The notes: a model not told the origin generated them from the sequence alone. Shown: positions 4,488 to 26,239, numbered from the stretch's first letter. The stretch is DNA of 62,789 nt from Planctomycetota bacterium (GCA_016872555.1 VGZO01000024.1:1-62789); one strand, 5' to 3'. Program-made: numbers and translations.

Positions 4488-4492
4488 GGCCG

Positions 4493-5089
4493 CTACCGCG
4501 GGTGCCGCCGCGCCTCCGTGGTGCGCGAATCGTCGGGAAATCCGGGGCCGTCCAATTCCCGGGCCAACCATTCGCAGGCGTAGTCCCAGCGCCGGTCGAC
4601 GGTCCGCGGCGCCAGCCCGAGCGCCGCCGCCGTCTCGCGCACGGTCAGCCGGCAGTAGTGGCGCAGCTCGAACACCAACGCCGCGCTCGGGCTCGACGCC
4701 GCGAGGTGGTCGAGGAGGTCGTCGATCACCAGCGCCTCGGCCCACGGGTCGTCGGCCGCCACTTCCCCCAGCGCGATGTCGTGCCGCGTCAGCCCGCCTC
4801 CGGCGCGCTCCGACCGCCGCTTCCGGGCGGCATCGACGAGCAGCCGGCGCATCGTCCGCGACGCGGCTGCGACGAAATGCCCCGGGCAGTCCCAGGAAGT
4901 GCCTCCGCTGTCGCGGAGGAGCCGCTCGACCGCCTCGTGCGTGAGCACGGTCGGCTGCCAGGAATGGGCGTGGCGCTCGGCCGCCAGCCGCCGCCGGGCG
5001 ATCGCCCGCAGTTCACGGTAGAGGAGCGTGACCAGCGCCGGCGTGTCGAGGGACGCCGGCGCCGTCCGTGGATCGTCGACCGTCGCCAT
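4493..5089 (-). CDS. ECF-type RNA polymerase sigma factor
   Basis: A 198-residue sigma-70 family factor of the extracytoplasmic-function type. Region 2 is visible in LLYRELRAIARRRLAAER and the following QPTVLTHEAVERLL. Region 4 is a helix-turn-helix near the end (LTVRETAAALGLAPRTVDRR). This spacing resembles the planctomycete/acidobacterial ECF group often called TIGR02999. The start at ATG 5089 gives the normal family length; 85 extra residues available upstream do not look like protein. No anti-sigma gene is adjacent. The WD40 Ser/Thr kinase begins 5 bp downstream on the same strand, which suggests control by phosphorylation (inference from the known linkage). Confidence 0.93.
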   Translation of the reverse strand: MATVDDPRTAPASLDTPALVTLLYRELRAIARRRLAAERHAHSWQPTVLTHEAVERLLRDSGGTSWDCPGHFVAAASRTMRRLLVDAARKRRSERAGGGLTRHDIALGEVAADDPWAEALVIDDLLDHLAASSPSAALVFELRHYCRLTVRETAAALGLAPRTVDRRWDYACEWLARELDGPGFPDDSRTTEARRHPR

Positions 5090-5412
5090 CCTGGAATGCC
5101 CCCGGCACACGGGCGGGGGCTCGGGACGCAGTCGGCGCGTCACGGTGGCCGCCGGGTGCTGATCAGCCCCCGATCTCTCCGACGGCCTCCGCAGTTTACA
5201 CCCCCGTCCAGGTGACCCCACGAATCGCACCGGAATCGCCCAGAAGAAGGGTTTTTTGGCGGAAAACCGACACCCCTTCGACGGCGGGGGTGAACCTTGC
5301 GAAAAAGCCCGCCAGACCCGTGGCGTCTTTTCGCTCCGTTTCACGCCATAACCATGAGAGGAACCGCAGTGTGGGTCCTCTCCGACGCGGGGCGTGGCAT
5401 GGAGGGACGACG
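5090..5412. other. divergent intergenic region
   Basis: This is the spacer between the minus-strand sigma-factor gene and the plus-strand hypothetical gene, so it must hold divergent promoters. I see no convincing -35/-10 pair on either strand. Short A and T runs (near 5251 and 5302) stand out from the GC-rich surroundings. A GGAGGGA ribosome binding site at 5401-5407 belongs to the next gene. Confidence 0.5.
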
Positions 5413-11736: not shown

Positions 11737-12978
11737 TCACCCGTGGCCGGCCCGGGCCGCGGTCTCGACGATCGCCTCACCGAGCCGGTCGCAGCCGTCG
11801 TGGATCTCGGCGGGCGTGATCGTCATCGCCGGCAGGAGGCGGATCACCCGCCCCTGCGTGCAGTTGACGAGGAGCCGCTTCTCGAGGGCCCGCTCGACCA
11901 CTGGCGCCCCGTCGATCGACAGTTCGACGCCGATCATCATCCCGATCACGCGGACCGCCACCACCGCGTCGCAGCGCTCCTGGAGCTCTTCGAGCCGCTC
12001 GCGGAAGATCGCCGCCGCGGCGGAGACATGGTCGAGCAGCCCCTCCTCCTCGATCATCCGGATCGCGGCGATCCCGGCCACGGCAGCCAGCGGGTTGCCG
12101 CCGAAGGTGGCGGCGTGCATCCCCGGCCGGAGGTGGCCGGCGAGATCGGCGCGGCACAGCATGCCGCCGCCGGCGACGCCGGCGCAGAGGCTCTTGGCGA
12201 GCGTCAGCACGTCGGGGGTGACGCCGAACCGCTGGTAGCCGAACCAGGTGCCCGTCCGCCCCGAGCCGCACTGCACCTCGTCGAACACCAGCAGCAGGTC
12301 GTGGGCGTCGGCGATCCGGCGCAGCCCCTCGAGGAATCCCGGCGGCGGCGGCACCACGCCCCCCTCGCCGAGGATCGGCTCGACGAGGATCCCGCCGGTC
12401 TGGTCGTCGACGAGCTTCTCGACCGCCTCGAGGTCGCCGTGGGGGGCGTAGGCGAAGCCGGGGAGCATCGGCCCGAGCCCCTCGTGGTACTTCGGCTGCG
12501 CCGTGGCCGACAGGCTCCCCATCGTGCGGCCGTGGAAACCGCCGCGAAAGGAGATGAGCTTGTAGCGCTTGCCGTCGCTGCGGAGACGGACCAGCTTGAT
12601 CGCCGCCTCGTTGGCCTCGGTGCCGGAATTGCAGAAGAAGGCCTTGCCGCCGAAGCTCCGCTCGGAGAGCAGCCGGGCCCACTCCCCCTGGGCCTCCATG
12701 TACCAGGTGTTGGGAACGTGGATCAGGCGCGCGACCTGCTCCTGGACGGCGCGGACCACCGGCTCGGGGCAGTGGCCGAGGAGGTTGCAGCCCCACCCGG
12801 GAAACAGGTCGAGGTACTCGGTGCCTTCGGCGTCCCAGACGCGCGAGCCGCTGCCGCGCACCAGGCACACCGGGAAGCGCCGGTAGTTGGGGACGACGTA
12901 GCGGTCGAAGGTGTCGATGACCGCACGGGTGACGGTGCCAATGGCGGGTGCCGGCGACGGGGCGTCGATCGTGGCCAT
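11737..12978 (-). CDS. argD: acetylornithine aminotransferase
   Basis: A 413-residue class III PLP aminotransferase that makes N-acetylornithine from N-acetylglutamate semialdehyde and glutamate. GTEANE at 119-124 binds the cofactor phosphate, VFDEVQCGSGRTG holds the PLP-pairing Asp, and the Schiff-base lysine should be Lys262 in LTLAKSL. After that lysine the usual GGGxPIGA is replaced by CAGVAGGGML, mildly unusual. It sits between argB (63 bp upstream) and argF (4 bp downstream), which makes the ArgD role much more likely than another omega-aminotransferase. The start ATG gives the family length with a short N-terminal tail. Confidence 0.95.
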   Translation of the reverse strand: MATIDAPSPAPAIGTVTRAVIDTFDRYVVPNYRRFPVCLVRGSGSRVWDAEGTEYLDLFPGWGCNLLGHCPEPVVRAVQEQVARLIHVPNTWYMEAQGEWARLLSERSFGGKAFFCNSGTEANEAAIKLVRLRSDGKRYKLISFRGGFHGRTMGSLSATAQPKYHEGLGPMLPGFAYAPHGDLEAVEKLVDDQTGGILVEPILGEGGVVPPPPGFLEGLRRIADAHDLLLVFDEVQCGSGRTGTWFGYQRFGVTPDVLTLAKSLCAGVAGGGMLCRADLAGHLRPGMHAATFGGNPLAAVAGIAAIRMIEEEGLLDHVSAAAAIFRERLEELQERCDAVVAVRVIGMMIGVELSIDGAPVVERALEKRLLVNCTQGRVIRLLPAMTITPAEIHDGCDRLGEAIVETAARAGHG

Positions 12979-13041
12979 GGTGGAAACCCTCCTCTCGCGG
13001 CGGCAGGCGCGCCGTGCGCCGGCCGCAGTGGTCTGTCGGGG

Positions 13042-14031
13042 TCAGCGCTGCGCGGGGCGTGATCCGGCGGCGACGTCGTCGCGCACCAGTTCGGTGCCGA
13101 CGCCGCTGGTGGTGTAGATCTCGAGGAGGAGCGAATGCCGCAGCCGCCCGTCGATCACGTGGACCTTCTTCACGCCCCGGTCGAGCGTCTCCAGGCAGCC
13201 CTCGATCTTGGGGATCATGCCGCCGGCGATCGTGCCGTCGGCGATCAATCGCCGCGCCTCGGTGGCGGTGAGGGAGTGGATCAGGCTCTCCGGGTCACCG
13301 ATGTCGCGGAGCACGCCGGGGATGTCGGAGAGGACGACGAGTTTCTCGGCGCCGATCGCCGCGGCGACGGCCGTCGCCGCGGTGTCGGCATTGACGTTGA
13401 GCCTGCCGCCGTCGGGGCCCAGCGCCATCGACGGGATCACCGGCACCTGGCCGGCGTAGGTGAGGTTGTCGATCGACAGCCGGTCGACGCGCGTCACCTC
13501 GCCGACATGGCCGAGGTCGACCGGACCGTCGGGGCCGGGAAGCGTGAGCCGTTCGCCGAACAGGACGTTCGTCGAGCGGAAGTTGAGCGACATCGCCCGG
13601 CCGCCGAACTCCTCGATCCTCGCCACGAGCTCGTGGTTGAGATCGGTGGCCAGCACCTGCTCGACGATCGCCAGCGTCGCCTCGTCGGTGTAGCGCCGCC
13701 CCTGGACGAAACGCGGGGTGATCCCGGCGCCGTCCATTGCCCGGCTGATCGCCTTGCCGCCTCCGTGGACGACGACGATCTTCATCCCCAAGGTCGACAT
13801 GAAGACGATGTCGAGCAGCAGGTGGCGAAGCGACTCGGGATGCTCGACGACGCTGCCGCCGAGCTTGATCACGGTCGTCGTGTCGCGGAACTTGCGGATC
13901 CAGCCGAGGGCCTCGACGAGCGTGTCGGCCTTCTGGATCGCCTTCTGCTGCGCCCTGGAGACGCTCGGGGGACTGGGCACGGCGCGACGCTTCCTCGTGC
14001 GGCTGGTTCCGGAGGGGAAACCGCCGATCAT
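13042..14031 (-). CDS. argB: acetylglutamate kinase
   Basis: A 329-residue amino-acid kinase that phosphorylates N-acetylglutamate, the second step of arginine synthesis. KLGGS at 56-60 and VVVHGGGKA near 87-94 are the nucleotide and substrate glycine loops; [19 protein letters not shown] and GGMIPKIEG are typical ArgB blocks. ATG 14031 overlaps the stop of the upstream isomerase gene as ATGA, indicating coupling. The first 30 residues are a basic, poorly conserved extension, so GTG 13980 is an alternative start closer to the usual 300-residue length. A longer open frame upstream is antisense or off-frame noise. Confidence 0.95.
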
Positions 14032-15011
14032 ACCCCGGCCTGCGGCGGGGGGAAAACGTTGGTTTCCCCCTCCTGTGCATAGGCCGCCGCGGCGGCGGCG
14101 AGCCCGCGGCCGAGGCGCGCCCGCCAGTCCTCTCCCTCCCCGGGCGGGCCGATCTCGACCGACACCCACCGGTCGTAGGCGGCGGCAGCGAGCAGCCGCG
14201 CGACCGCGCGGTGGTCGGTGCCGCCGTCGCCGAGGGGCACGAGGTGCGGCTCGCTGGCATGGACGTGCCGCCAGCGCGGCCCGGCCGCCGCGATCACGGC
14301 CGCCGCCGACTCCCCCGCGAGGTGCATCCCACCGGTGTCGAGGTGGACACCGAGACCGTCCGCCGCGACGGTGCTCACGAAGTCGATCACGTCGCGCGAC
14401 GCGGTGAGGAAGTCGCAGCCGTAGTCCGGGGGATTGGCTTCGAGGCACAGCCACACGCCCCGGTCGGCGGCGCGCCGGGCCAGCGTTCGGAAAAACGGCA
14501 CGGCGATCGCCGTCGCCGTCGCCACGTCCAGCGTGCCGCGGCGGCGCTGGCGCGGCGCGCCGAAGACGAGCGACTCCGCGCCGAGCCCGGCCGCCAGGTC
14601 GACGATCCCCGCGAGGTGGTCGGCGAGGAGCTGCCGCGGTCCCTCCGACCCGAACAGCGCCATCCCGTCGCGCCCGAAGAGCAGCGCCTGCAGCGCCACG
14701 ATCGGCAGGCCCTGTTCCTCCCAGAACCGGCGGACCGCGGCGACGCGGCGTCCGTCGGCCTCCCAGGGGCGCTCGCAGACGCGCGCCGGCACCAGCTCGA
14801 CCCCGGCGATCCCGTGCGCGACCAACAGCGCGGCGGCCTCGGCGTCGGCCCCGGGGGGCCAGGCGATCTGCGACGCGCTCAGCTTCCCGTGGACAAAGCC
14901 CTCCGTGGCCTTTGTCCACTGTGGCGACCGCGGGAAACGCCGAGGGTCTCCCGGGTCGCCTTCGGCCGCTTCCGGCGGCCGCTGATGTGGTCCGCAGCCA
15001 CTCACGCGCAT
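14028..15011 (-). CDS. TIM-barrel sugar-phosphate isomerase/epimerase-like protein
   Basis: A 327-residue frame if it starts at ATG 15011. The recognisable xylose-isomerase-like barrel begins only at KLSASQIAW (about residue 43). It continues with [33 protein letters not shown] and [10 protein letters not shown], which carry the likely metal-binding Glu, Asp, His and Glu of the family. The 40 residues before that are encoded by the 95-bp interspersed repeat (14887-14981), so the true start is uncertain: either the repeat supplies the N-terminus or a non-ATG codon near 14880 is used. It overlaps the upstream epimerase by 10 bp and argB by 4 bp. Substrate unknown; the neighbours suggest sugar metabolism. 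Confidence 0.82.
14887..14981. repeat. 95-bp three-hairpin interspersed repeat, copy 1
   Basis: Matches 46989-47083 in the same orientation with 11 mismatches and no gaps (about 88%). Three successive stem-loops can be drawn. A perfect 10-bp stem pairs 14889-14898 with 14910-14919. A 12-bp stem with one bulged G pairs 14923-14935 with 14949-14960. CGGCCG arms pair at 14963-14968 and 14976-14981. It lies over the 5' end of the isomerase gene. Confidence 0.8.
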
Positions 15012-15772
15012 CGGCGCAGGCTCCGCTCGACCGCCACGAAGGCACGGATCCCGTCGAGCACCTCGGCGGCGCCGGCGACGTAGGGACCGCTGCGGCCGAA
15101 GACCTCGCCGTGGCGGGTGCGGAAGTCGTAGGCGGGCGCCTTGCCGGGCAGGCAATTGGCAAACTCGATGCCGAACGCATGGCGCGCGACCGCCGCCATC
15201 GACACCGGCTCGGTCGCCAGGTGGACGAGCGACAGCCCCGCCAAGCGCGCCCGGTCGACGTCGGCGGCGAGGCGCTCGAGGTCGTAAAACTGGTAGCGGG
15301 CGCGGCAGTCGATCTTCTCCGGCTGGTTTCCGTGGAGCAGGTCGTAGACGGCGTTCTTCTTCAGGCCGCGGCCGTACAGCGCCGGCAGGCGCACGACGAG
15401 CGCGGGAAACCGCGCGGCCAGGGCGCGCTCGAGCTCGAGGCGGTGGCGGCCGTAGGCGGTCGCCTGCGACGGCTCGTCCGCCTCGGTGACGCCGCTGGGA
15501 TCCCCGAACACGTCGACCGTCGAGATCACGACCACGCGCCGCGCCTCCGCGGCGACCAGCGCTGCCACGAGCCGGGCGAGGTTGGCCCGGTCGGCGGCCG
15601 GGTCGTGGTTGGCCTTCCACTTCTCGGCCGGGGCCCCCGCGCACCAGATCGTCTCGTAGCGCCGGCCGGCGATCCGCTCGATGTCGGTCGAGCGGTAGCA
15701 GTCGGCGAACCGGCGCTGGCGGAGGAGCGTGCCACCGACCAAACCGGTGCTGCCGACGAGGGCGTCTCCCAT
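15002..15772 (-). CDS. NAD-dependent epimerase/dehydratase family protein
   Basis: A 256-residue short Rossmann protein. The nucleotide loop is at the very start ([13 protein letters not shown]). [13 protein letters not shown] is the conserved strand with the catalytic Ser/Thr, and [10 protein letters not shown] carries the YxxxK-type pair in altered form (Tyr followed by Arg-His-Arg). ALYGRG and [10 protein letters not shown] follow. It is shorter than typical sugar epimerases (about 310). ATG 15772 is chosen because the dinucleotide loop starts immediately after it and upstream sequence in this frame is noise. It follows the glycosyltransferase by 22 bp and overlaps the isomerase gene, so it probably acts on a nucleotide sugar for the same glycan (inference). 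Confidence 0.82.
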
Positions 15773-15794: not shown

Positions 15795-16649
15795 TCAGGC
15801 GGCCCGGCGGCCGCACGGCGGATCGAAGCGGCCGAGGCAGGCGCTGGCCAGCGTGCCGAGGACGGCGAGGTTGCCGCGGAGGCCGCGGATCTTCGTCGGC
15901 ACCGCGCCGCGGGCCGGATAGGCACGGGTCACGGGGATCTCCTCGACGCGGAAGCCGAGCCGGGCGGCACGGATCGCGAGGTAGTAGTGGAGCTCGTACC
16001 CGCTGAACACGTCGCGGAACGGCGCCACCCGTGGGTCGAGGAGGAGGCGCCGCGAGTAGCCGCGGAAGCCGTTGGTGGTGTCGGTGTAGCGGCGGCCGGC
16101 GGCGAGGCTCACCGCCGGGGCGTGCACGAGTGTGACGGCCAGGTGCCGCGCGAGCGGCGTGTTGATGCCGCAGCCCCCGGGAAGGTAGCGCGAGCCCTGC
16201 ACGTGGTCGACGCCGTCGGCCAGCACCGCGTCGAAGCGCGGCAGCGCCGCGGGATCGTCCTTGCCGTTGCCGTCCATCACGACGACGCCGTCGTAGCCCG
16301 CGCCGAGGCACCAGGCCAAACCCATCCGCATCTGAGCCGAGAGCCGGCCGGGGCCGCGCTTCACGAGCAACGCGCGGACGCCGGCCGCGGCGAGGCGACC
16401 GGGATCGGTCGAGCCGTCGCGGCTGCCGCCGTCGGCGACGATCACGTCGAGGGGGTGGTCGACGTGGCGCATCCGCTCGAGCTGGCCGTGGAGGCGCTCC
16501 CCCTCGTCGATCACGAACAGGCAGACGGCGCGGCGGCCACGGCGCTCGGCGAGCACGACGGCGTCGTGCTCCGGGACGGCCCAGGCAGCGGCGGCGGCCG
16601 GATCGACGGCGCGGAGGTCAGGCGGCACGGCGTGCGGGGGCGGATTCAC
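15795..16649 (-). CDS. family 2 glycosyltransferase
   Basis: A 284-residue GT-A fold enzyme. VIVADGGSRDGST is the first nucleotide-sugar loop, VVVMDGNGKDDP stands at the DxD metal site, and DTTNGFRGYSR resembles dolichyl/undecaprenyl-phosphate sugar transferases. No clear membrane helix is seen, so it would be a soluble or peripheral enzyme transferring a sugar, perhaps to a lipid carrier. ATG 16649 overlaps the end of the upstream glycosyltransferase by 32 bp; a GTG near 16628 would give a smaller overlap. It belongs to the surface-glycan part of the minus-strand cluster. Confidence 0.85.
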   Translation of the reverse strand: MNPPPHAVPPDLRAVDPAAAAAWAVPEHDAVVLAERRGRRAVCLFVIDEGERLHGQLERMRHVDHPLDVIVADGGSRDGSTDPGRLAAAGVRALLVKRGPGRLSAQMRMGLAWCLGAGYDGVVVMDGNGKDDPAALPRFDAVLADGVDHVQGSRYLPGGCGINTPLARHLAVTLVHAPAVSLAAGRRYTDTTNGFRGYSRRLLLDPRVAPFRDVFSGYELHYYLAIRAARLGFRVEEIPVTRAYPARGAVPTKIRGLRGNLAVLGTLASACLGRFDPPCGRRAA

Positions 16650-17658
16650 GGGCGTCCTCGGGGGTCGGCACGGGGGCGCCGGCGGCGGCGAGCGAGCAGA
16701 GGTTGCGGCGCCGGGCGTCGGTCAACGCCGTCGACGACGAAGCCTCCTCGGCGACGTGGTACAGCGGGCAGTCCTTCACCTCCTCGAAGGCGTGGGCGAG
16801 GTACTCCGCGATCACCGCCAGCGTCGTGAACAGGAAGAAGAACATCACCGCCAGCTGCAGCGAGAGCGTCGTCCACCCCTCGACGACCCGGTCCTTCCAG
16901 AGGTTGGCCGCCACCACCCAGGCCATGCAGCCGACGTTGAGGAGGCTGGCGAACCCGCCGAGCCAGCTGACGAGGCGGAGCGGCGCCGGCGACTGGCTGA
17001 CGAGCATCGACACCGCCTCGCCGAGCGTGCCCAGCCACGGGCGCAGCCGCGCCGGCCCGGTCGGCTCGTAATCGAGCGTCGCGGTGCGGAATCCGACCGA
17101 GCAGCCGAGGAGGCGGAGGTGGACGGTCTTCTGGCGGTGGCGCGTGAGGGCGTTGAGGGCCCGGCGGTTGAACAGGCGCAGGGTCGAGGCGCCGCGCACG
17201 AGATCGAACCCCGTCGCCCGCCGGAAGACGTGGTGGAACAGATTCCAGGCCATGCGCCGCGGGAGCGAGCGGCCCCGCGCGCCGGTGGTCCCGATGACGA
17301 TGTCGGCGCCGCCGGCGGCCAGCGCCACCAGATCGGGGATCCGCGCCGGCGGATCGGTGGCCACCGCCATCACGACGCTCATGTCGCCGAGCGCCGAGTC
17401 GAGGCCGGCGGTGACGGCGACGTCGGGGCCGTGGCGGCGCGAGAGGCGCAGCACGCGGACGCACTCGTGGCGCGCGAGGATCGCGGCACATTCGCGGGCG
17501 CTCGCGTCGGCCGAGCCGTCGTCGACGAGGATCAGCTCGTGGTCGGCGGCCGTGGCCGCAAGGACCGCGAGGACCTCGGCAACGAACGCGTCGAGGCGCG
17601 GCGCGTCGTTGTCGACCAGGGCGACGACCGAGAGGAAGCTGGCCCGTGGAGCGGTCAT
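16618..17658 (-). CDS. GtrB/DPM1-like membrane glycosyltransferase
   Basis: A 346-residue family 2 glycosyltransferase. ELILVDDGSADAS is the nucleotide-binding loop; VVMAVATDPPARIPDL stands where the DxD is expected but has lost one acid. Two membrane helices near the C-terminus (about 235-260 and 275-300, with SLQLAVMFFFLFTTLAVIAEYL) match the GtrB layout, in which a sugar is placed on undecaprenyl phosphate at the inner membrane. ATG 17658 overlaps the stop of the FAD gene as ATGA. A partner flippase is not obvious, although the two multi-pass proteins upstream could fill later steps. Confidence 0.85.
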   Translation of the reverse strand: MTAPRASFLSVVALVDNDAPRLDAFVAEVLAVLAATAADHELILVDDGSADASARECAAILARHECVRVLRLSRRHGPDVAVTAGLDSALGDMSVVMAVATDPPARIPDLVALAAGGADIVIGTTGARGRSLPRRMAWNLFHHVFRRATGFDLVRGASTLRLFNRRALNALTRHRQKTVHLRLLGCSVGFRTATLDYEPTGPARLRPWLGTLGEAVSMLVSQSPAPLRLVSWLGGFASLLNVGCMAWVVAANLWKDRVVEGWTTLSLQLAVMFFFLFTTLAVIAEYLAHAFEEVKDCPLYHVAEEASSSTALTDARRRNLCSLAAAGAPVPTPEDARESAPARRAA

Positions 17659-18782
17659 GCGGCCCTCCGCAGGGAAGGGGCGGCGTCGAGCGGGATGGCG
17701 TCGAGCATGTCGAAGACGTTGTCGAGCTTCGAGGCGAGGATGCACGACAGGCCCGGCAGGCCGACGTCGTGCTCGAGGAGGATCGGGCGGCCGTCGTCGC
17801 GGTCGTTGGCGGGGAGGACCGTCTTGATCTCCCACAGGCTGTCGACCTGCCGGCACCCGGCCAGCACCGGGAGGAGGCGGATGGCGTCACGCTGCATCAG
17901 CGGAAAGCGTGACTTCGGCGCCGTCTCGGCCAGGTAGCGGTGGCCGTCGAGCAGGCCACCGGGGCCGTCGGTCCAGCTGGTGTGGGGCGTGTAGCGGACG
18001 TGGGTGAAGGAGTGGAGGCCACGCGACGGGAACGGCATCACCGAGAAGAATGGGCCGCACATCACCGTCACGCCGAGACCGCGGACCTCGTCGGGGACCT
18101 CGACGAGGGCGACTTCGGCGACCTCGTGGCGCAGAGGGATCGGGGCCACGCCGGCGGCGTCGAGGAGCAGGTTGAGCCGGGAGTAGGCGCAGGCGTAGAC
18201 ACGCTCGAACCGGGCGACCCCGGCGCCGTCGGGCCCGCGCGAGGCGAGCGTCACCCCGCCGCGCGGCGCACGGCCCAGCCCCGTGACCTCGGTCGCCAGC
18301 CGGACGGCGACCCCCGCCGCGGCGAGGCGCGCGTGGCAGGCGCGGCGCAGGGCGACGGCGTCGAACGCCCATTCCTCGACCGTGAACACCGCCTCGACCA
18401 GGTCGCGGTCGAAGAGCCGCGCCAGGTGCGGCGGCGCCGGGCTCACCGGCGCCCCGATCCGCCGGCAGAACCCGGCGAAGTGCCGCGCCGTGACGTGCGA
18501 GTGGCGCGCGGCGACGGCGTAGAGCATCGTGAACGAGTCGTCGATGCAGTCGGCGAACTCGGCGCGGAAGCGCGGCAGGTTGGCGCGGGAGCGCAGGCCG
18601 GTGAGCAGGCTGCGCGGGTAGTGGTAGCCGCCGTGGACGCGGGCCTGGTTGGCCAGCGACGCGCGGAGGAGGAGGTCGCCCTCGCGCTCGAAGAGGACCA
18701 CGCCGGCGCCGCCGTGGGCCAGCCGCTCGGCGAGCAGGCAGCCGTAGAAGCCTCCTCCGATGACGGCGTGGGTGGCGGGCAC
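17655..18782 (-). CDS. FAD-dependent oxidoreductase (DAO type)
   Basis: About 375 residues from a GTG at 18782. The dinucleotide loop is at the start (HAVIGGGFYGCLLAERL), followed by VVLFEREGDLLLRAS for the ribose-binding acid and NQARVHGGYHYPRS, typical of glycine-oxidase-like flavoproteins. No ATG exists close to the Rossmann loop; earlier in-frame ATGs would overlap the upstream gene by more than 200 bp, so GTG is preferred. It lies 19 bp after the membrane-protein gene and overlaps the next glycosyltransferase by 4 bp. The substrate is unknown; similar proteins occur in polysaccharide clusters. Confidence 0.82.
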   Translation of the reverse strand: MPATHAVIGGGFYGCLLAERLAHGGAGVVLFEREGDLLLRASLANQARVHGGYHYPRSLLTGLRSRANLPRFRAEFADCIDDSFTMLYAVAARHSHVTARHFAGFCRRIGAPVSPAPPHLARLFDRDLVEAVFTVEEWAFDAVALRRACHARLAAAGVAVRLATEVTGLGRAPRGGVTLASRGPDGAGVARFERVYACAYSRLNLLLDAAGVAPIPLRHEVAEVALVEVPDEVRGLGVTVMCGPFFSVMPFPSRGLHSFTHVRYTPHTSWTDGPGGLLDGHRYLAETAPKSRFPLMQRDAIRLLPVLAGCRQVDSLWEIKTVLPANDRDDGRPILLEHDVGLPGLSCILASKLDNVFDMLDAIPLDAAPSLRRAA

Positions 18783-18801: not shown

Positions 18802-20334
18802 TCAGCGTGGGGGGGTGGCGGCCGCGTGGCGACCGGCGAGCCGCGCCGGGGCCGCGCGGGCGACGGCGCGCTCGACTGCGGCACGGGGGAGGAGGATCTC
18901 CCTCGGCATCGACGGATGGGCGGGAATGCCGACGAAGGCGCCGTCGACGGCCAGCTTGCCGTCAACGCCGCGCCACGCGCCGAGGGAGACGGTCCGGGCG
19001 GCCGCACGCCGGAACCAGCCGTCGTCGTCGACGATGAATTGCGAGGCGGCGACCGTCCCGGGGGGTTCCCGGCAGACCGCCAGCGCCGCCAGGCCGAACA
19101 GTGCCGCCAGCGGCAGCCGTGCCAGGAACGGCCGAGCGGCCAGGCGTGTCTGGAGATCGCTGGCGAAGGCGGCCATCAACGGCAGGCCGACGAGATACTG
19201 CGCGTAGAAGTAGCGGTCGGGGAACGTCGTCCGGTAGTCGCCGAGGTGGGCGGCCAGCTCGGGGCGCTTGAAGACCAGCGTCGCCGACGTGAGCGCCAGC
19301 AGGCCGAGGCCGCCGGCATACAGCCAGCGGTGGCGCGGGAGGCCGAAGCGCCACGTGAGCCACAGGGCCAGCGCTGCCAGCGCCACCGTGCGGTCGGTGT
19401 TGAGCCAGCGGTACACCGGCCAGGAGAGCGAGTAGAACAGGCTCCGTGCCAGGCCACATTCGATCGCCCGGTCGAACGGCATCGGCGGCGCCAGCGCGGC
19501 CCGGTCGCCGTGCGCCACTGTCGTGGGGATGCCGTTGCCGGCGAGGCAGGCGAGCACGGCGGTGGCGAGGGTCCAGACCGCCGGATCGCGGACGATCGCC
19601 AGCGCCGCGGTGCGGAGGCCGGCCCGGTCGCGGACCGGTGCGAGCCGCCGCAGCGCCGGCCAGGCGGCGACCGGCAGGAGGGCGGTGGCGATCGGGTTGG
19701 TGAGCACGCACGTGGCCAGGCCGGCGTCGATCACCGCGGCACGGGCCGGCCGGAGGTGCGTCGTGAGACGCACCCACACCAGGAGAAAGGCCACGAACAG
19801 GGCCGCGAAGCCGACGTTCATGGCGCGGCCGAGGATCTCGTAGCCACTCCACGAGCCGGAATGGATGCCCAGCGGCATCGACACCGCCAGCAGCCAGACT
19901 GCGGCCAGCGCCGCGGGACGAAGCCGGCGGCGGAGGAGGAGCACCGGCAGTGAGACGACCAGCGCGAAAGCGCAGTACGAAACGAGCGCCTGGTAGCGGG
20001 GGATCGCGAGAACGTCGTCGCCCGCCAGGTCGCACAGCCGCATCCCTCCCCAAAGCACCGCGACGTTGCCGAGGACGGCATAGTCGGGACGCGCGTGGAA
20101 CGCCGTGTGCCAGAAGCCGTGGGTCACCAGGAGCGTCGTCCAGTCGCGGTCCTCGGCGAAGAACACGGGGTTGACCCACGGCCCGGGTGCACGGGCGAAG
20201 AACACGACGAATGCGGCGGCGGTCGCGGCGACGAACCGAAACGACGGTCCGCGGAGCACGTCCCAGACGTGCTCGACGACGAGGCCGGCAAACGGCGCGC
20301 CGGTACCGCACCGGAGTGGCCGAAGCGGGATCAT
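18802..20334 (-). CDS. multi-pass membrane protein, module copy 2 (GT-C-like)
   Basis: A 510-residue protein with about ten membrane helices and a soluble C-terminal tail. The first outer loop has VFFAEDRDW; acidic pairs in this loop are typical of GT-C transferases that use lipid-linked sugars, but the match is only suggestive. Shared blocks with the paralogue at 21063-22592 include SLPVLLLR, PLGIH, GYEILGR, AFLLVW and TFPDRYF, in the same order. ATG 20334 overlaps the stop of the small anchored protein (ATGA). I infer a role in sugar transfer to a cell-surface polymer. Alternative: a transporter or polymerase of unknown class. Confidence 0.75.
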   Translation of the reverse strand: MIPLRPLRCGTGAPFAGLVVEHVWDVLRGPSFRFVAATAAAFVVFFARAPGPWVNPVFFAEDRDWTTLLVTHGFWHTAFHARPDYAVLGNVAVLWGGMRLCDLAGDDVLAIPRYQALVSYCAFALVVSLPVLLLRRRLRPAALAAVWLLAVSMPLGIHSGSWSGYEILGRAMNVGFAALFVAFLLVWVRLTTHLRPARAAVIDAGLATCVLTNPIATALLPVAAWPALRRLAPVRDRAGLRTAALAIVRDPAVWTLATAVLACLAGNGIPTTVAHGDRAALAPPMPFDRAIECGLARSLFYSLSWPVYRWLNTDRTVALAALALWLTWRFGLPRHRWLYAGGLGLLALTSATLVFKRPELAAHLGDYRTTFPDRYFYAQYLVGLPLMAAFASDLQTRLAARPFLARLPLAALFGLAALAVCREPPGTVAASQFIVDDDGWFRRAAARTVSLGAWRGVDGKLAVDGAFVGIPAHPSMPREILLPRAAVERAVARAAPARLAGRHAAATPPR

Positions 20335-20993
20335 GGTGCCGGCTCCGGGGCCGTGGCGTAGCTCAGCCGGAGGTGGAGTGCCGTCCCCAGGGGATAGACC
20401 GTGGGGGGCGTGTCGGGTGTCGGCCCGGTGATCACCGGTGTCGCGCGCCCCTCGGGCGACCTGTAGAGCGCGAGTGCCGGCGTCGGCCCACCGAGCTCGG
20501 CCGGTACGAGCAGCTTGAGGGCGTAGCGCCCGCCGCCGCTCATCGGCAGCGGCGCGAACCGGATGTCGAACCAGCCCGTCTCCCGCGCCGCGGCGAGATC
20601 GAGCGTTCCGGACGCGAGGCGGCGCTTCGCGCCCGCGGGAACGTCGGTCGCGACGATCCGCCAGATGATCTCCCCGGACGGCGGGCCCGTGGGCACCGCG
20701 CGGGCCTCGACTCGGACGCCGCAGAATCCGTCGCGGAGCGCGCACAGTGGCTGCTCGATCGTCGTGCCGGGGGCGAGCGGCAGGTCGGGGAGCGGGGTGC
20801 CGACAATCGCCAGCAGTTCGCCGTCGGGTGGCGCCCGCCCTGCCCGCCGCTCGGCCAGCGCTCCGCGCGCCTGGGCCTCGATGCCACGGAAGGCGATGCC
20901 GACCGCCGACACGAGCGCCCCCAGGCAGATGCCCCAGGCGATCGCCCGGCAGGCGAGCCAGCGGAGCCGGCGGCGGGTACGGGTGGCGGGCAT
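20331..20993 (-). CDS. membrane-anchored beta-rich protein, module copy 2
   Basis: A 220-residue protein with a basic start (MPATRTRRRLRWLACR), one membrane helix (IAWGICLGALVSAVGIAF) and an exterior domain of alternating hydrophobic residues that reads as a beta-sandwich. It resembles the 217-residue protein at 22589-23242 in layout: helix, TTIEQPLCALRDGFCGVRVE versus VRVEQPFRSERDGLDGVQVR, then SGTLDL/SGTLDP and a Pro-rich C-terminus ending in LHLRL/LHLML. The stop overlaps the following membrane-protein start, as in the other copy. No known family recognised. ATG 20993 is chosen over an upstream ATG at 21050 because the basic/hydrophobic start fits a membrane anchor. Confidence 0.75.
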   Translation of the reverse strand: MPATRTRRRLRWLACRAIAWGICLGALVSAVGIAFRGIEAQARGALAERRAGRAPPDGELLAIVGTPLPDLPLAPGTTIEQPLCALRDGFCGVRVEARAVPTGPPSGEIIWRIVATDVPAGAKRRLASGTLDLAAARETGWFDIRFAPLPMSGGGRYALKLLVPAELGGPTPALALYRSPEGRATPVITGPTPDTPPTVYPLGTALHLRLSYATAPEPAP

Positions 20994-21062
20994 GGCAGGG
21001 ATTCGAAAAAAGGGAAGCGGGACGGTAGGGGGCCCGGGGGGCCGTGTCAACGTGAGTCGGGG

Positions 21063-22592
21063 TCAGCGAGGCAGCGGCGGATTCGCTGCGCCGGCGACCG
21101 CATAGCCCCGCGCGGCCAGGGCACGGATCAACGGCTCCCGCGGGAAGACGAACTTCTTCGGCGTGCCCTCGGGATTGGGAATGAGGACGAACCGGCCGTC
21201 GGGGTCGGGGGCGAACCGCTCGTCGACGAAGCTCCCGGCGGTCACCGCGCGCGCCGCGCGCAGTGCGAACAGCCTCCCCTCCGGCCGGAGCGTCTGCGAC
21301 GGCGCGAGCCGCCACGGAGGCTCGTGGAGCACGGCCGCCACGATCCAGGCGGCGACCAGCGCCAGGGGGACGTGCCGCAACCACCGCCGGTGCAGGGCGC
21401 GCCGGGAGACGTCGGCGGCGAGGGTCACCAGGAGGGCCACGCCGACGAGGTTCTGGCCGTGGAAGTAACGGTCGGGAAAGGTGCCGTCGTAGCCCCGCAG
21501 GTGCGTGCCGAGCTCCGGCCGGAACAAGACCAGGACCGCCGCGACCAGCGCCAGCAGCGCGCCGCCGCCGAGGTACACCATCCGCCGGTGCGGCGTCGAC
21601 ACGCGCGCGACCAGCGCCACCACGAGCACGGTCGCGGCGAGCACGAGGCCCGTGCCCAGATGGCGGTAGACCGGCCACAGCACCGGGTAGAGCGTGCTGC
21701 GGGCGAGGGCGATCTCGACGATCCCGGCGACGTCGAGCGGTGGCACCGGCTCGCGGGGGCGGATCTTCCACGGGTTGGGAAGACCGCACAGGCCGGCGGC
21801 GGCCGCGGCGAGCAGCACGAGGCCGACGACGGCCGGATCGCGGGCGACGTCCGCTGCCGTCCGCCGCCCGCGCCACACGGCGCGGGCCTGCGGCCAGACG
21901 GCGGCGGGGAGGACGGCGGCGCAGATCGGATTGGTCGTGATGCAGGCCAGCAGGCCGAGATCGACCGCGGCGAGCCGCGCCCCGCGCGGCGCGGCGGTGG
22001 TCCGGTGCCAGACGAGGAGAAACGCGGCGTAGAGGCAGACGAAACCGGCGTTGGAGACGCGGCCGAGGATCTCGAACCCGGAGAACGTCCGGTCGTGGAT
22101 CCCCAGCGGTAGGACACAGCCGGCCAGCCACAGCGCGGCGAGGAACGGGGGCGGGAGGCGGTGCCGGAGGAGGAGCACCGGGAGGGAGACCACCGCCGCG
22201 ACGAACACGTAGCTCACCAGCGCGCAGCTCCGCGCGTACTCCAGGGGATCGCCACCGAAGACGAGGTGGCACCAGGCCGTCCCCGCCTCGAGGAGGAGGA
22301 TGTTGCCGAGGATCGTGTAGTCGCTCTCCGGCCGGCCGTGGAACGCGGCGTGGAGGAAGCCGCGCGTGTGGACCAGCGAGCTCCACATGCCGTCCTCGGC
22401 GAACAGCTGCGGGACGACGTACGGGCGCGGTGCCCGCGCGAAGAGGACGACGACCGCGGCCGTCGTCGCCGCCAGGTAGGCGGTGAACGGATGGAGGAGC
22501 ACCCGGTGGAGGTCCGATCCGAACGATCGTCCGCCATGCGCCGTCGCCGTGGGCGATGGCGGCAGGGGCTCTGTCGAGGGAGGGGGCGTCAT
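21063..22592 (-). CDS. multi-pass membrane protein, module copy 1 (GT-C-like)
   Basis: A 509-residue paralogue of the protein at 18802-20334. Residues 1-30 are Pro/Ser-rich, then a first helix and outer loop with LFAEDGMW. Further helices carry SYVFVAAVVSLPVLLLRHRL, PLGIHDRTFSGFEILGR and TFPDRYFHGQNLVG. The tail (about 440-509) is hydrophilic and ends in a basic segment. The AEDG form of the loop is closer to the GT-C acidic motif than the AEDR of the second copy. ATG 22592 overlaps the preceding gene's stop (ATGA). Function not established; placed in the glycan cluster by context. Confidence 0.75.
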   Translation of the reverse strand: MTPPPSTEPLPPSPTATAHGGRSFGSDLHRVLLHPFTAYLAATTAAVVVLFARAPRPYVVPQLFAEDGMWSSLVHTRGFLHAAFHGRPESDYTILGNILLLEAGTAWCHLVFGGDPLEYARSCALVSYVFVAAVVSLPVLLLRHRLPPPFLAALWLAGCVLPLGIHDRTFSGFEILGRVSNAGFVCLYAAFLLVWHRTTAAPRGARLAAVDLGLLACITTNPICAAVLPAAVWPQARAVWRGRRTAADVARDPAVVGLVLLAAAAAGLCGLPNPWKIRPREPVPPLDVAGIVEIALARSTLYPVLWPVYRHLGTGLVLAATVLVVALVARVSTPHRRMVYLGGGALLALVAAVLVLFRPELGTHLRGYDGTFPDRYFHGQNLVGVALLVTLAADVSRRALHRRWLRHVPLALVAAWIVAAVLHEPPWRLAPSQTLRPEGRLFALRAARAVTAGSFVDERFAPDPDGRFVLIPNPEGTPKKFVFPREPLIRALAARGYAVAGAANPPLPR

Positions 22593-23242
22593 CGGCGCGG
22601 TTCCCCCTCCGGATAGAGCAGCATCAGGTGGAGGCAGCCTGCGGCCGGGCCGCTGCCGGTGACGACGGCCGGGGGATGGGGGGTGGTGGGAGTGAACAGC
22701 GGAATCCCGAGCGCGGCCCCTGGGTCGTCCGCCGGACCGTCGATCACCAGCGACAGCCGCCGGCGGCTGCTGTCGGCGACCGGTGCGAAGGGGATCTCGA
22801 GAAACGTCCAATCGCGGGCGCGCCGTGGGTCGAGCGTTCCGGAGCGGATCACGCGCGCCGCGGAACCGTCGTCCGCGGCGGCGACGAGCCGCCAGCGGCA
22901 GTCGGCCGCCGCCGGGACGACCTTCCAGGTGGCGGTGCGCACCTGGACGCCGTCGAGTCCGTCGCGCTCGGACCGGAAGGGTTGTTCGACGCGCACGCCG
23001 CCGGCCAAGCGGACGACCTCCGCCAGTCCGACCACGTCGGCCATCGGCACCCCGGGGCGACCGAAGATGGCGTCCAGCTCGTGGCGTGCCGACCGCTCGA
23101 CGAAGGCGAACGCCGCCCCGCCGGCGGCGAGGATCGTGGCGACGACGAGTGCCCACGCCGCCACGCGGCGGACGGCGCCGGCCACGCGGCACGCCGTGTG
23201 GTGGTCATCGGTCGGGCCCCGGTCGTGTCGGAAGGCGGCCAC
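22589..23242 (-). CDS. membrane-anchored beta-rich protein, module copy 1
   Basis: A 217-residue protein with a helix at about 24-46 (VRRVAAWALVVATILAAGGA) and an exterior domain with repeated beta-strand patterns (VQVRTATWKVV, RRRLSLVIDG). It is a paralogue of 20331-20993 by layout and shared blocks. The porin gene ends 24 bp upstream and the stop overlaps the membrane-protein start by 4 bp. It may hold or present the membrane partner, like small anchored proteins paired with polytopic transferases; this is inference. No catalytic motif is visible. Confidence 0.75.
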   Translation of the reverse strand: MAAFRHDRGPTDDHHTACRVAGAVRRVAAWALVVATILAAGGAAFAFVERSARHELDAIFGRPGVPMADVVGLAEVVRLAGGVRVEQPFRSERDGLDGVQVRTATWKVVPAAADCRWRLVAAADDGSAARVIRSGTLDPRRARDWTFLEIPFAPVADSSRRRLSLVIDGPADDPGAALGIPLFTPTTPHPPAVVTGSGPAAGCLHLMLLYPEGEPRR

Positions 23243-23266: not shown

Positions 23267-24730
23267 TCAAAACACGATCATGAACTGCGTCTGGATCGCC
23301 GTGCCGGTGGCACCGGCGCGGTACGGATAGAGGATCGCCTGCGTGGGGCTGCGGAGGATCGACAGCGCCTCGACCGTGAACCGGCCCTGCCGCGAGCCGT
23401 TGACGTACCAATTGAGGCCGCCGCCGTACTCCTGCCCGGTGCCGAACGGCCCGGTGACCACGCTCGACCGGCCGTAGACTTCGGCGCGGCGCGGCAGGAA
23501 GCACCACGACAGGTAGCCCATCCCGCCGTGGTCGAAGACGCTCGAGCGGGTGAACGTGCCGCTGCCGGTGAAGTCGTCGAGCATCCGGAAGTAGTACTCG
23601 AACCCGAGCCCGACGCCGCGCCACTTCCAACCGGCGTCGACGCTCGACAGGTGGTAGCGGTAGGCGTCGACCTGGCTGTCGGGGCCGAGCGCCCCCGCGG
23701 CGGCCAGCGGCGTGCCGTCGGACAGCCGGACGATCGTGTTTTCAGGATTGAGGGTGGGGAGGATCTGCGCGTAGGTGCGCGCGTAGGTGCCACTGGTGCC
23801 GACGCGCACCGCCGCCTCGTCGTGGTGCTCCATGTCGCCGAAGCCGAGGCCGAACGGCGCCAGTGGTTCCCACCAGACGTTGCCGGCGAAGGCCATCGAC
23901 GTGCCGCGTCGCAGCACTCCACCGGCGCTGCCGTCGATCGCGTTCCAGATGCCCGCCTGATAGTGGAACCGTTCCTCGAACAGCGCCCCGAGAGCCAGCA
24001 CCCCGGGGCTGTACCCGGGGCGGAAGAAGGTGTTGGCCATGCTCCGGTCGACTCCCACGGTCCAGGAGTTGGAGTCGACCCACTCGCGCGTCCCCGGCAC
24101 GATCGTCATGCCGCCGCCGAGGATCGCTTCGGGCCCGAATTTCCACCCCACCATCCCGATCGGCACGACGCCCGACTGGATGCCCGGATTGGAGGTGCCG
24201 AAGATCGCGAACGCGTACAGCAGCCGTTCGTCGACGACATGGCCGGTGAACGACAGCAGATAGCGGTTGAGGGAGAAGACGTTGAGGTTCCGCACGGGCA
24301 GCGTCGTGCCGGCGGCGTTGGTCCACTCGGTCGTGCCGCGGGCGAACTCCAGCCAGCGGAGCTGGAGAAACCCGCCGATCGCCAGCGCGAAGGGAAAGCC
24401 GCCGCTGTCCGGGGGCTCCTTGAAGAGAACGAGGCCGCGCGGTCCGGCCAGATCGGTCGCCGGGATGTAGCGCGGCCGCGGGATGCCGGCGAGGCGTGCT
24501 TCGACGGCGGCGTCGATCGCCGCCTCCAGCAACGCCTCCGCCTCGGCGTCGTCCGCCGGCAGGTCCTCGGGCGACGGCATGGCCGGCACACGCTCTGCCG
24601 CCGGGCGGCTCCCGGACCATGTCCGGGACGAAATCGCGTCGGCTTCCCGGATGCGCACGTTGTCCGCCAGCGCCGGCACCATGCTGGCGATGACCGCACC
24701 GAGGAGCGCCAGGAGGAGGGGGAGTCGCAT
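23267..24730 (-). CDS. OprO/OprP-like outer-membrane porin
   Basis: A 487-residue protein with a signal peptide (MRLPLLLALLGAVIASMVPALA), a short charged segment rich in Asp/Glu, and then alternating hydrophobic/aromatic strands typical of a beta-barrel (GGFLQLRWLEFARG, NRYLLSFTGHVVDERLLYAF, GVGLGFEYYFRMLDDF). It ends with an aromatic residue (MIVF), the usual outer-membrane assembly signal. The layout matches the phosphate-selective porin O/P family; the solute is not predictable. ATG 24730 is set by the signal peptide; a longer frame to 24904 is noise. It is the first gene of the minus-strand cluster, divergent from the LysR gene. Confidence 0.85.
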   Translation of the reverse strand: MRLPLLLALLGAVIASMVPALADNVRIREADAISSRTWSGSRPAAERVPAMPSPEDLPADDAEAEALLEAAIDAAVEARLAGIPRPRYIPATDLAGPRGLVLFKEPPDSGGFPFALAIGGFLQLRWLEFARGTTEWTNAAGTTLPVRNLNVFSLNRYLLSFTGHVVDERLLYAFAIFGTSNPGIQSGVVPIGMVGWKFGPEAILGGGMTIVPGTREWVDSNSWTVGVDRSMANTFFRPGYSPGVLALGALFEERFHYQAGIWNAIDGSAGGVLRRGTSMAFAGNVWWEPLAPFGLGFGDMEHHDEAAVRVGTSGTYARTYAQILPTLNPENTIVRLSDGTPLAAAGALGPDSQVDAYRYHLSSVDAGWKWRGVGLGFEYYFRMLDDFTGSGTFTRSSVFDHGGMGYLSWCFLPRRAEVYGRSSVVTGPFGTGQEYGGGLNWYVNGSRQGRFTVEALSILRSPTQAILYPYRAGATGTAIQTQFMIVF

Positions 24731-25132: not shown

Positions 25133-26239
25133 GTGACTGAACGCGACGGTACGGAACACGCTGCCAAAGGCGCCTCAGCCGGGCCCGCTCCGGGTGTGAA
25201 CCTGAAGTCGCTGAAGATCTTCTGCGACATCGTCGCCCGTCGCAGCTTTTCGCGGGCGGCCGAGGACAACGGCATCTCGCAGTCGGGGGCCAGTCAGGTC
25301 GTCGGGCAGTTGGAGAGCCGCCTCGGTGTCCAGCTCATCGAGCGCTCACGCCGGCCGCTTGTGCCCACCAAAGAGGGGCAGGTGTTCTTCGATGGCTGCC
25401 TCAAGTTGATCGCCAAATACGACGCCCTCGAGGACGAGGTGCGCAGCCTGCGGGAAGAGGTGGCGGGGCGGGTCCGTGTGGCGGCGATCTACTCCGTCGG
25501 CCTGCACCTCATGAGCCGCCACGTGCAGGAGTTCACGAGCCGTCACCCGCGGGCCAACGTCCGACTCGAGTACCTCCATCCGGAGCGGGTGCTCGAGTCG
25601 GTGGAGAACGGCCAGGCCGACATCGGCATCGTCAGCTACCCCCGCAGCACGCGTTCGCTCGAGGCCGAGCCGTGGCGGGACGAGCCGATGGTGCTCGTCT
25701 GCGCTCCCGGCCATCCGTTCGCCGATCGGGTCGAGGTGTCGCTCGGCGAGCTCGACGGCGTCGCGATGGTCGGTTTCGACGCCGACCTGGTGATCCGCCA
25801 CGAGATCGACCGGGCCCTCGTCGCCCACGACGCCGCGCCCGGGGTCGTGATGGCGTTCGACAACATCGAGGCGATCAAGCGGGCGGTGGAGATCGACGCC
25901 GGCGTGTCGCTCCTCCCCGAGCCGACGATCGGGCGCGAGCTGGCCGCCGGCACGCTCGTGGCCGTTCGCCTCGCACCGCTCAAGCCGCTCCCCGGGCGTT
26001 CCGACAACCCTGCGACACCCACCGAGCTGGTGCGGCCGCTGGGCATCGTCCGCAGCCGGGGCAAGCCGCTGGCGCACACCGTGGAGCGGTTCATCGCCCT
26101 GCTTCGCGAGAACGTCGGCGACGGATTCCCTCCGCCGCGTGCCGCGCGGCGCGACGCCGACGCCGCACCCGCCGCGCGCCGCGCCGCGGCGAAGGTCGCG
26201 GCAGCCGTCCCCGGGGCCGCGGCGCCTGCCACGGCCTGA
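25133..26239 (+). CDS. LysR-family transcriptional regulator
   Basis: About 368 residues from GTG 25133. The winged helix-turn-helix lies at about 23-82 ([40 protein letters not shown]). The effector domain follows ([52 protein letters not shown]). The last 40 residues are an Ala/Arg-rich tail beyond normal LysR length. Starts are uncertain: TTG 25043 and TTG 25094 are in frame, and GTG 25133 has a modest GGAAG upstream. It is 107 bp before gltB on the same strand and divergent from the porin cluster. By analogy with GltC-type regulators it may control glutamate synthase (inference). Confidence 0.9.

Follow-up and report, generated by a model that had tools for sequence, protein, structure and literature searches.

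The 62,789-nucleotide stretch of Planctomycetota bacterium DNA analysed here (GCA_016872555.1 VGZO01000024.1:1-62789; the window in what follows) carries, at positions 18,802 to 23,242, two consecutive pairs of membrane protein genes, each formed by a small gene followed by a large one. The question that this locus raises is what such a two-gene module does and why it is present twice. We propose that each of the two pairs, named modules A and B, probably encodes a GT-C glycosyltransferase that uses a polyprenyl-phosphate-linked sugar, together with a separate subunit resembling a carbohydrate-binding module (CBM), and that the whole module was tandemly duplicated.

Organization and duplication of the module

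An earlier note on this sequence had described four open reading frames arranged in two pairs of the same plan, in which the stop codon of the small gene overlaps the start codon of the large one, and had considered one pair a tandem duplicate of the other. All four were recovered with the same limits on the minus strand, and the overlaps were read directly at the junctions (CCG ATGA CG and ACC ATGA TCC), each pair sharing the four bases ATGA. The duplication is equally real: between large A and large B, 439 aligned residues show 45% identity (E 5e-79), and between small A and small B, 172 residues show 31% (E 1e-16), a likeness far beyond chance.

In comparison with the orthologues of the nearest relative, a sister species (G001, a Planctomycetota MAG), the ratio of nonsynonymous to synonymous substitutions (dN/dS) was 0.37 for large A, 0.33 for large B, 0.42 for small A and 0.43 for small B. 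These values indicate that all four are maintained protein genes under purifying selection. The small subunit diverges faster than the large one, which fits what would be expected of a specificity module.

Predicted fold and conserved residues of the large protein

The AlphaFold2 model of the large protein, built with 17 homologues in the alignment, reached a predicted local distance difference test (pLDDT) score of 82 and a predicted template modelling score of 0.85. The first six matches obtained by Foldseek with this model were GT-C enzymes (AftA, ALG9 and OST), AftA being the best (E 7e-4). With VIA-align, rows 1-48 of the solved structures listed were GT-C enzymes or PIGU, a relative of theirs without catalytic function, with Z scores from 16.1 to 7.5, including Pmt1-Pmt2 (16.1, over 360 residues), ALG12 (15.5), ArnT (14.0), AftB (13.9), PglB (12.2), AftD (12.0) and EmbB/EmbC (about 11), and the first unrelated fold in the list was FtsW (6.5 and 5.9). 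The model and both structural searches agree in giving the large protein the multi-pass fold shared by GT-C enzymes.

In GT-C enzymes, the catalytic acid is found in the outer loop that follows the first membrane helix. In the model, a membrane helix at residues 35-53 is followed by two short helices (65-77 and 79-85) that start with an AED motif, giving the expected helical segment with a conserved acid. The earlier note had placed the acidic loop at this very position, in agreement with the model, and none of the 16 sequences that reach this site departs from the Glu-Asp pair. A second motif, Asp-Arg-Tyr (374-376 of large A), lies at the start of a late helix and is also present in 16 of 16 sequences covering it. 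The same note had drawn attention to AEDG in one copy and AEDR in the other. Both were found in the first outer loop (residues 65-68 of large A and 60-63 of large B), but the fourth residue turned out to be uninformative: G, R, W, Q and A all occur there in the family, AEDR being restricted to the window species and its closest relative. The contrast between AEDG and AEDR was rejected as a sign of functional difference, as the fourth position varies freely.

The large proteins of the window gave no Pfam, NCBIfam or PHROGs match. The predicted structure supports, in outline, their membership in the GT-C superfamily, within which they would form a new sequence family. The transfer of sugar from a polyprenyl-phosphate donor is suggested by the gene context described below.

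Predicted fold of the small protein

The model of the small protein (AlphaFold2, nine homologues in the alignment, pLDDT 86) consists of a long N-terminal helix, residues 13-60, followed by ten strands arranged as a jelly roll. Its structural neighbours include modules of CBM61, CBM16, CBM32 and CBM51, with the BT0996-C CBM at Z 8.3, and the lectin-like domain of Cwp84 at Z 9.0. The jelly-roll beta-sandwich of CBMs is therefore present in the predicted structure. Membership by sequence was not found: neither Pfam nor NCBIfam gave the small proteins a match at E<=1, PHROGs gave none either, the aligned family members yielded no relevant match, and the comparison by sequence with solved structures returned chance matches only. 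Neither Pbn1 nor PIG-X was among the structural matches listed, a result that carries no weight either way. In most members of the family, Lys and Arg outnumber Asp and Glu ahead of the helix, and this charge bias weakly suggests that the beta domain lies on the outer side of the membrane. According to the model, the small protein would be a helix-anchored protein of CBM-like fold with a putative ability to bind glycans. The earlier note had proposed structure prediction as a check; in the models, the large protein has the fold of GT-C enzymes, and the small one has a jelly roll like that of CBMs, preceded by one helix.

Co-occurrence, distribution and history of the pair

Among 72 genomes of the family, the small-protein profile matched exactly the same seven genomes as the close clade of the large protein and none of the other 65. 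The earlier note had also suggested looking for the pair in other planctomycetes, and the two genes stand together in 7/7 close-clade genomes, one ancestral copy of the partner (module 0) being reduced to its helix.

The window genome (G000), a planctomycete draft of 4.47 Mb and 98% completeness, holds exactly two copies of the module, even when searched with a broad profile, and no remote paralogue was found in it with that profile. Three members of the same genus were sampled. G001 has two modules, in G002 the two large genes lie on different short contigs, and G003 has three modules in tandem, the last one interrupted by the end of the contig. In the sister genus of the same family (G242, G246 and G292) there is one module per genome, in a matching operon, and its large copies are 50-62% identical to each other and 40-49% identical to A or B. 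The trees of the large and of the small subunit each recover A, B and the sister-genus groups, and in both the deepest split, which involves A/0, B and the sister genus, is left unresolved. The simplest explanation is a single ancestral pair that was copied as a unit in the window genus.

Module 0 is a third, upstream paralogue present in G003 and G002 and absent from G000 and G001. Its small gene (L010:6501-6773 and L012:1448-1720) encodes exactly 90 residues, in which the helix has been kept and the beta domain is gone. Its large gene has 80% identity and a dN/dS of 0.18, the lowest of the pairs compared.

Remote relatives of the large protein

A homologue of the large protein, with 28% identity to large A (421 columns, E 7e-29), is encoded on a viral contig of IMG/VR (L059:4917-6539), where it is flanked on one side by a filamentous-haemagglutinin-like gene and on the other by a gene for a tail protein. 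It matches phrog_19534, annotated as glucosyltransferase (E 5e-6), a match that the window copies do not give; it is probably a surface-glycan converting gene. Another homologue, from a different planctomycete lineage (L057:5550-7229, genome G622), adjoins a gene for a GtrB-like glycosyltransferase of family 2 (GT2) and rfbB/rfbA-like genes. Settings such as these two are typical of O-antigen side-chain transferases (PMC11127046; also general knowledge of Gtr systems). Because of the phage glucosyltransferase match and the Gtr-like surroundings, the remote relatives back the assignment of the large protein as a transferase. No sequence relation was found between P22 GtrC and the large protein, the related profile detected no further members in the order of G622, and no match was obtained in the plasmid collection (queries P0001, from the window, and the prophage homologue) or in the phage collection (query, the prophage homologue).

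The L057 homologue is interrupted by a single in-frame TGA, which may reflect a pseudogene, recoding or an assembly error. In the sister genus, a remote large paralogue without partner lies beside clpS-like and serS-like genes (L043, L044 and L045), and in L044 a gene for a very repetitive Cys-rich protein is also nearby.

Operon context and donor supply

The features of the locus are given in Table 1. The order small-large module, oxidoreductase, GtrB-like GT2, second GT2, epimerase and TIM barrel is common to the window and to the sister-genus loci as far as their contigs extend. Upstream of the modules, the barrel-like gene product has a signal peptide, is 96% identical to its counterpart in G001 (dN/dS 0.18) and had no Pfam or NCBIfam match; judging from its sequence it is probably an outer-membrane barrel. 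Its gene diverges from a LysR regulator gene (25196-26239, plus strand) and, facing away from it, is likely to be the start of the operon.

Table 1. Features of the module locus, positions being counted from the first nucleotide of the window
Feature	Position	Strand	Remarks
Probable outer-membrane beta-barrel protein	23267..24730	-	24 bases upstream of small A; same place in G001, G002, G003
Small A	22589..23242	-	217 aa, GTG start; predicted N-terminal membrane helix within residues 13-60 and jelly-roll beta-sandwich (~62-212), probably extracytoplasmic
ATGA stop/start overlap, small A to large A	22589..22592	-	Suggests translational coupling
Large A	21063..22592	-	509 aa; predicted GT-C fold, multi-pass; putative catalytic E66-D67 in first outer loop, invariant D374-R375-Y376
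Small B	20331..20993	-	220 aa; paralogue of small A
ATGA stop/start overlap, small B to large B	20331..20334	-	
Large B	18802..20334	-	510 aa; paralogue of large A, AEDR in first loop, E61-D62
FAD-dependent oxidoreductase (DAO)	17655..18782	-	PF01266, 4e-18; same order in L013, L040, L041, L042
GtrB-like GT2, C-terminal membrane helices (polyprenyl-phosphate sugar synthase family), DxD lost	16618..17658	-	
Second GT2, without membrane helix, MDGNxKDDP kept	15795..16649	-	Weak similarity to dolichyl-phosphate hexose transferase and AglJ
NAD-dependent epimerase-like protein	15002..15772	-	Conserved neighbour
Xylose-isomerase-like TIM barrel	14028..15011	-	Conserved neighbour

The GtrB-like GT2 aligns over its full length with P22 GtrB (24% identity, E 4e-23), matches the GtrB crystal structure 5eke (E 1.5e-30) and gives an E value of 4e-28 with the NCBIfam model of PgfS, under the cut-off of that model. 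From these neighbours, the locus would seem to be a setting for extracytoplasmic glycan building with polyprenyl-phosphate donors. The GtrB-like protein, which has lost its DxD, and the adjacent soluble GT2, which keeps MDGNxKDDP, could possibly act as a split polyprenyl-phosphate sugar synthase.

In the sister genus, two genes located upstream of the single module (L040:989-4048 and 4286-5269) encode a sulfotransferase-like protein and a 1019-residue GT2/WsaF double glycosyltransferase. At the other end, the operon of the window seems to continue into argB and argD, hardly any intergenic space or none being left (11737-15011, minus strand), which joins the sugar-isomerase-like gene with arginine biosynthesis genes.

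Proposed mechanism and alternative explanations

In the mechanism that we propose, the large protein would work at the outer surface of the cytoplasmic membrane, taking a sugar from a polyprenyl-phosphate donor and giving it to an acceptor. The Glu-Asp pair past the first membrane helix would be the base or the acid that positions the acceptor, and the invariant Asp-Arg-Tyr would touch the phosphate or the sugar of the donor. The small protein, anchored beside the large one and presumably in physical contact with it through its single N-terminal helix, would grip or select the acceptor glycan with its CBM-like beta-sandwich, as may be compared with the fused CBM of other GT-C enzymes and with Pbn1 helping Gpi14. 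The ATGA overlap would link the synthesis of both subunits, and the GT2 enzymes of the operon plausibly make the sugar donors. In the window genus, the pair would have been copied as a unit, giving two to three tandem copies, most simply to divide the labour between two positions or acceptors of one surface glycan.

Several results weigh against this proposal. Pfam and NCBIfam scans gave the large protein no sequence link to any curated glycosyltransferase family, and a sequence search of solved structures returned chance matches only. The DxD motif of the GtrB-like GT2 is gone in all five orthologues (window, L013, L040, L041 and L042), which have AV-ATDPP or DA-ASDPP for IDVDLQDP, and a search at E<=0.01 for the GtrA flippase (PF04138) found none in the genome, which is 98% complete, the control of that search detecting the family in 8 of 14 genomes; with the DxD lost and GtrA not found, the supply of donor is left unexplained. 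Phage baseplate and capsid jelly rolls outrank CBMs among the structural matches of the small protein, whose CBM resemblance is, in the model, limited to the fold at middling Z scores, and jelly rolls also serve roles that do not involve carbohydrates. In addition, the remote large homologues (~24-33% identical) have no partner where their flanks are readable (L043, L044 and the prophage L059), the contig of L057 (G622) ending too near for a call. The partner is therefore a property of one clade and does not extend through the superfamily. Such partnerless homologues had been named in the earlier note as one of the findings that would refute it; this case is realised in part, among the remote homologues. 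Its view of the pair as transferases with dedicated accessory subunits is supported by the predicted GT-C and CBM-like folds and the presence of the pair in 7/7 genomes, and is qualified by the remote homologues and by the one partner cut to its helix. The persistence of the module 0 transferase with a beta-less partner is the main caution against an essential beta domain, and this same partner offers the strongest argument from nature for separable roles of helix and beta domain.

The small protein could instead be a chaperone or stability factor of the PIG-X kind, acting without contact with the acceptor and having in its jelly roll only a protein-protein interaction domain. Module 0 (G002 and G003) speaks for this, as its partner is helix-only and yet its transferase has 80% identity and a dN/dS of 0.18, and lobe 2 of Pbn1 is indeed a protein-interaction domain (PMC12653191). 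Nevertheless, we regard this explanation as unlikely, since in all the other copies the beta domain has been kept, with a rate of change above that of the enzyme, a pattern more in keeping with specificity than with a structural role, and since its fold is CBM-like. It also seems rather improbable that A and B form one hetero-oligomer acting on one acceptor, in the way of Pmt1-Pmt2 or EmbA-EmbB. In its favour, A and B are neighbouring paralogues that differ little in length, the Pmt1-Pmt2 heterodimer supplies the top structural match, and at least two copies are present in the four members of the genus (4/4); but with a single module in the sister genus, in the same operon, and three in G003, pairing is not obligatory, and homodimers or monomers would fit equally.

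Two further explanations deny catalysis or transfer to the large protein. That it has a GT-C fold without catalysis, serving as a scaffold or lipid-binding subunit like PIGU, appears very improbable. PIGU, which is paired with the beta-rich single-pass PIGT, was among the structural matches, and PIGU-PIGT has been likened to Gpi14-Pbn1 (PMC12653191). However, the acidic pair of the first loop is invariant, whereas PIGU has SSW there (PMC12653191), and one remote relative matches a phage glucosyltransferase family while others lie in Gtr-like settings. A multi-pass protein within a polysaccharide operon might also be expected to be a polymerase of the Wzy type, a flippase or a transporter, but the structural matches are GT-C by a wide margin of Z (16 versus 6.5 and 5.9 for FtsW), and we give this last explanation hardly any credit.

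In the literature searched, no bacterial GT-C enzyme with a separate, co-translated, membrane-anchored CBM-like subunit was found. CBMs of GT-C enzymes are known as fused domains (PMC11127046, PMC3044687), and the eukaryotic Gpi14 has in Pbn1 a beta-rich partner that crosses the membrane once (PMC12653191). The novelty would reside in the separate CBM-like partner, as the GT-C superfamily is already known. We tentatively raise the possibility of an undescribed class of bacterial extracytoplasmic transferases in which the acceptor-binding CBM is an exchangeable, helix-anchored subunit, the surface glycan is diversified by duplication of the enzyme together with its subunit and by loss of all but the helix from the subunit of one copy, and the donor perhaps comes from a split synthase. 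If the proposed transferase-CBM pairing is true, the family provides a natural experiment on the role of the subunit, with complete partners in one clade, a helix-only partner in one ancestral paralogue and none in the remote homologues. It would also give a first handle on how surface glycans are built in these planctomycetes, where both proteins are without a Pfam or NCBIfam family, and the duplication of the pair suggests a route from one sugar-adding machine to two related ones.

Comparison with known systems

In the O-antigen conversion systems of Shigella and Salmonella phages (GtrA/GtrB/Gtr*), as in the window, a GtrB-like GT2 and a GT-C enzyme are clustered, and the prophage remote homologue lies beside a tail gene. 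The window differs from them in that GtrA was not found in its genome, its GtrB-like protein has no DxD and no sequence relation of its large proteins to P22 GtrC was found; in addition, its large proteins come with a partner subunit, and its operon is chromosomal and includes an oxidoreductase and an epimerase. The Pgf operon of Streptococcus mutans (PgfS-PgfM1-PgfE-PgfM2) combines a PgfS-like GT2 with three further glycosylation genes (PMC5856776). Two of these three genes, pgfM1 and pgfM2, are related by name; the abstract mentions no partner subunits, and the acceptors are surface proteins (PMC5856776).

The arabinosyltransferases EmbC, EmbB and AftD also join a GT-C fold to one or more CBM-like domains (PMC3044687), but these are single large mycobacterial proteins with the CBM in the same chain. 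In GPI mannosyltransferase I (Gpi14-Pbn1 or PIG-M-PIG-X), a GT-C catalytic subunit with an acidic motif in its first loop is accompanied, in Gpi14-Pbn1, by a single-helix, beta-rich auxiliary subunit packed on its outer side (PMC12653191). This system is eukaryotic and located in the endoplasmic reticulum, and Pbn1 has a C-terminal helix and a two-lobed domain, whereas the helix of the window protein is N-terminal and its domain a single jelly roll, the likeness being one of description. Finally, ORF12 of Citrobacter youngae O1 is the founder of family GT136, in which D31, E34 and R349 are essential and Y350 is important (PMC11127046). Compared by description, its CBM is fused at the C-terminus, while the CBM-like domain of the window is a separate helix-anchored protein, and the phosphoribosyl-based donor synthase of that system was not recognised in the window operon. 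Both share the GT-C fold, predicted in our case, a helical domain past the first membrane helix with acids near that helix that are essential in ORF12, an Arg ahead of a Tyr (in ORF12 the essential R349 and the important Y350), a beta-rich CBM or CBM-like domain, in our case probably extracytoplasmic, and a multi-gene system with a polyprenyl-phosphate donor, putative in our case (PMC11127046), so that, by analogy, D31, E34, R349 and Y350 may be equated with the Glu-Asp pair and the Arg-Tyr of the large protein.

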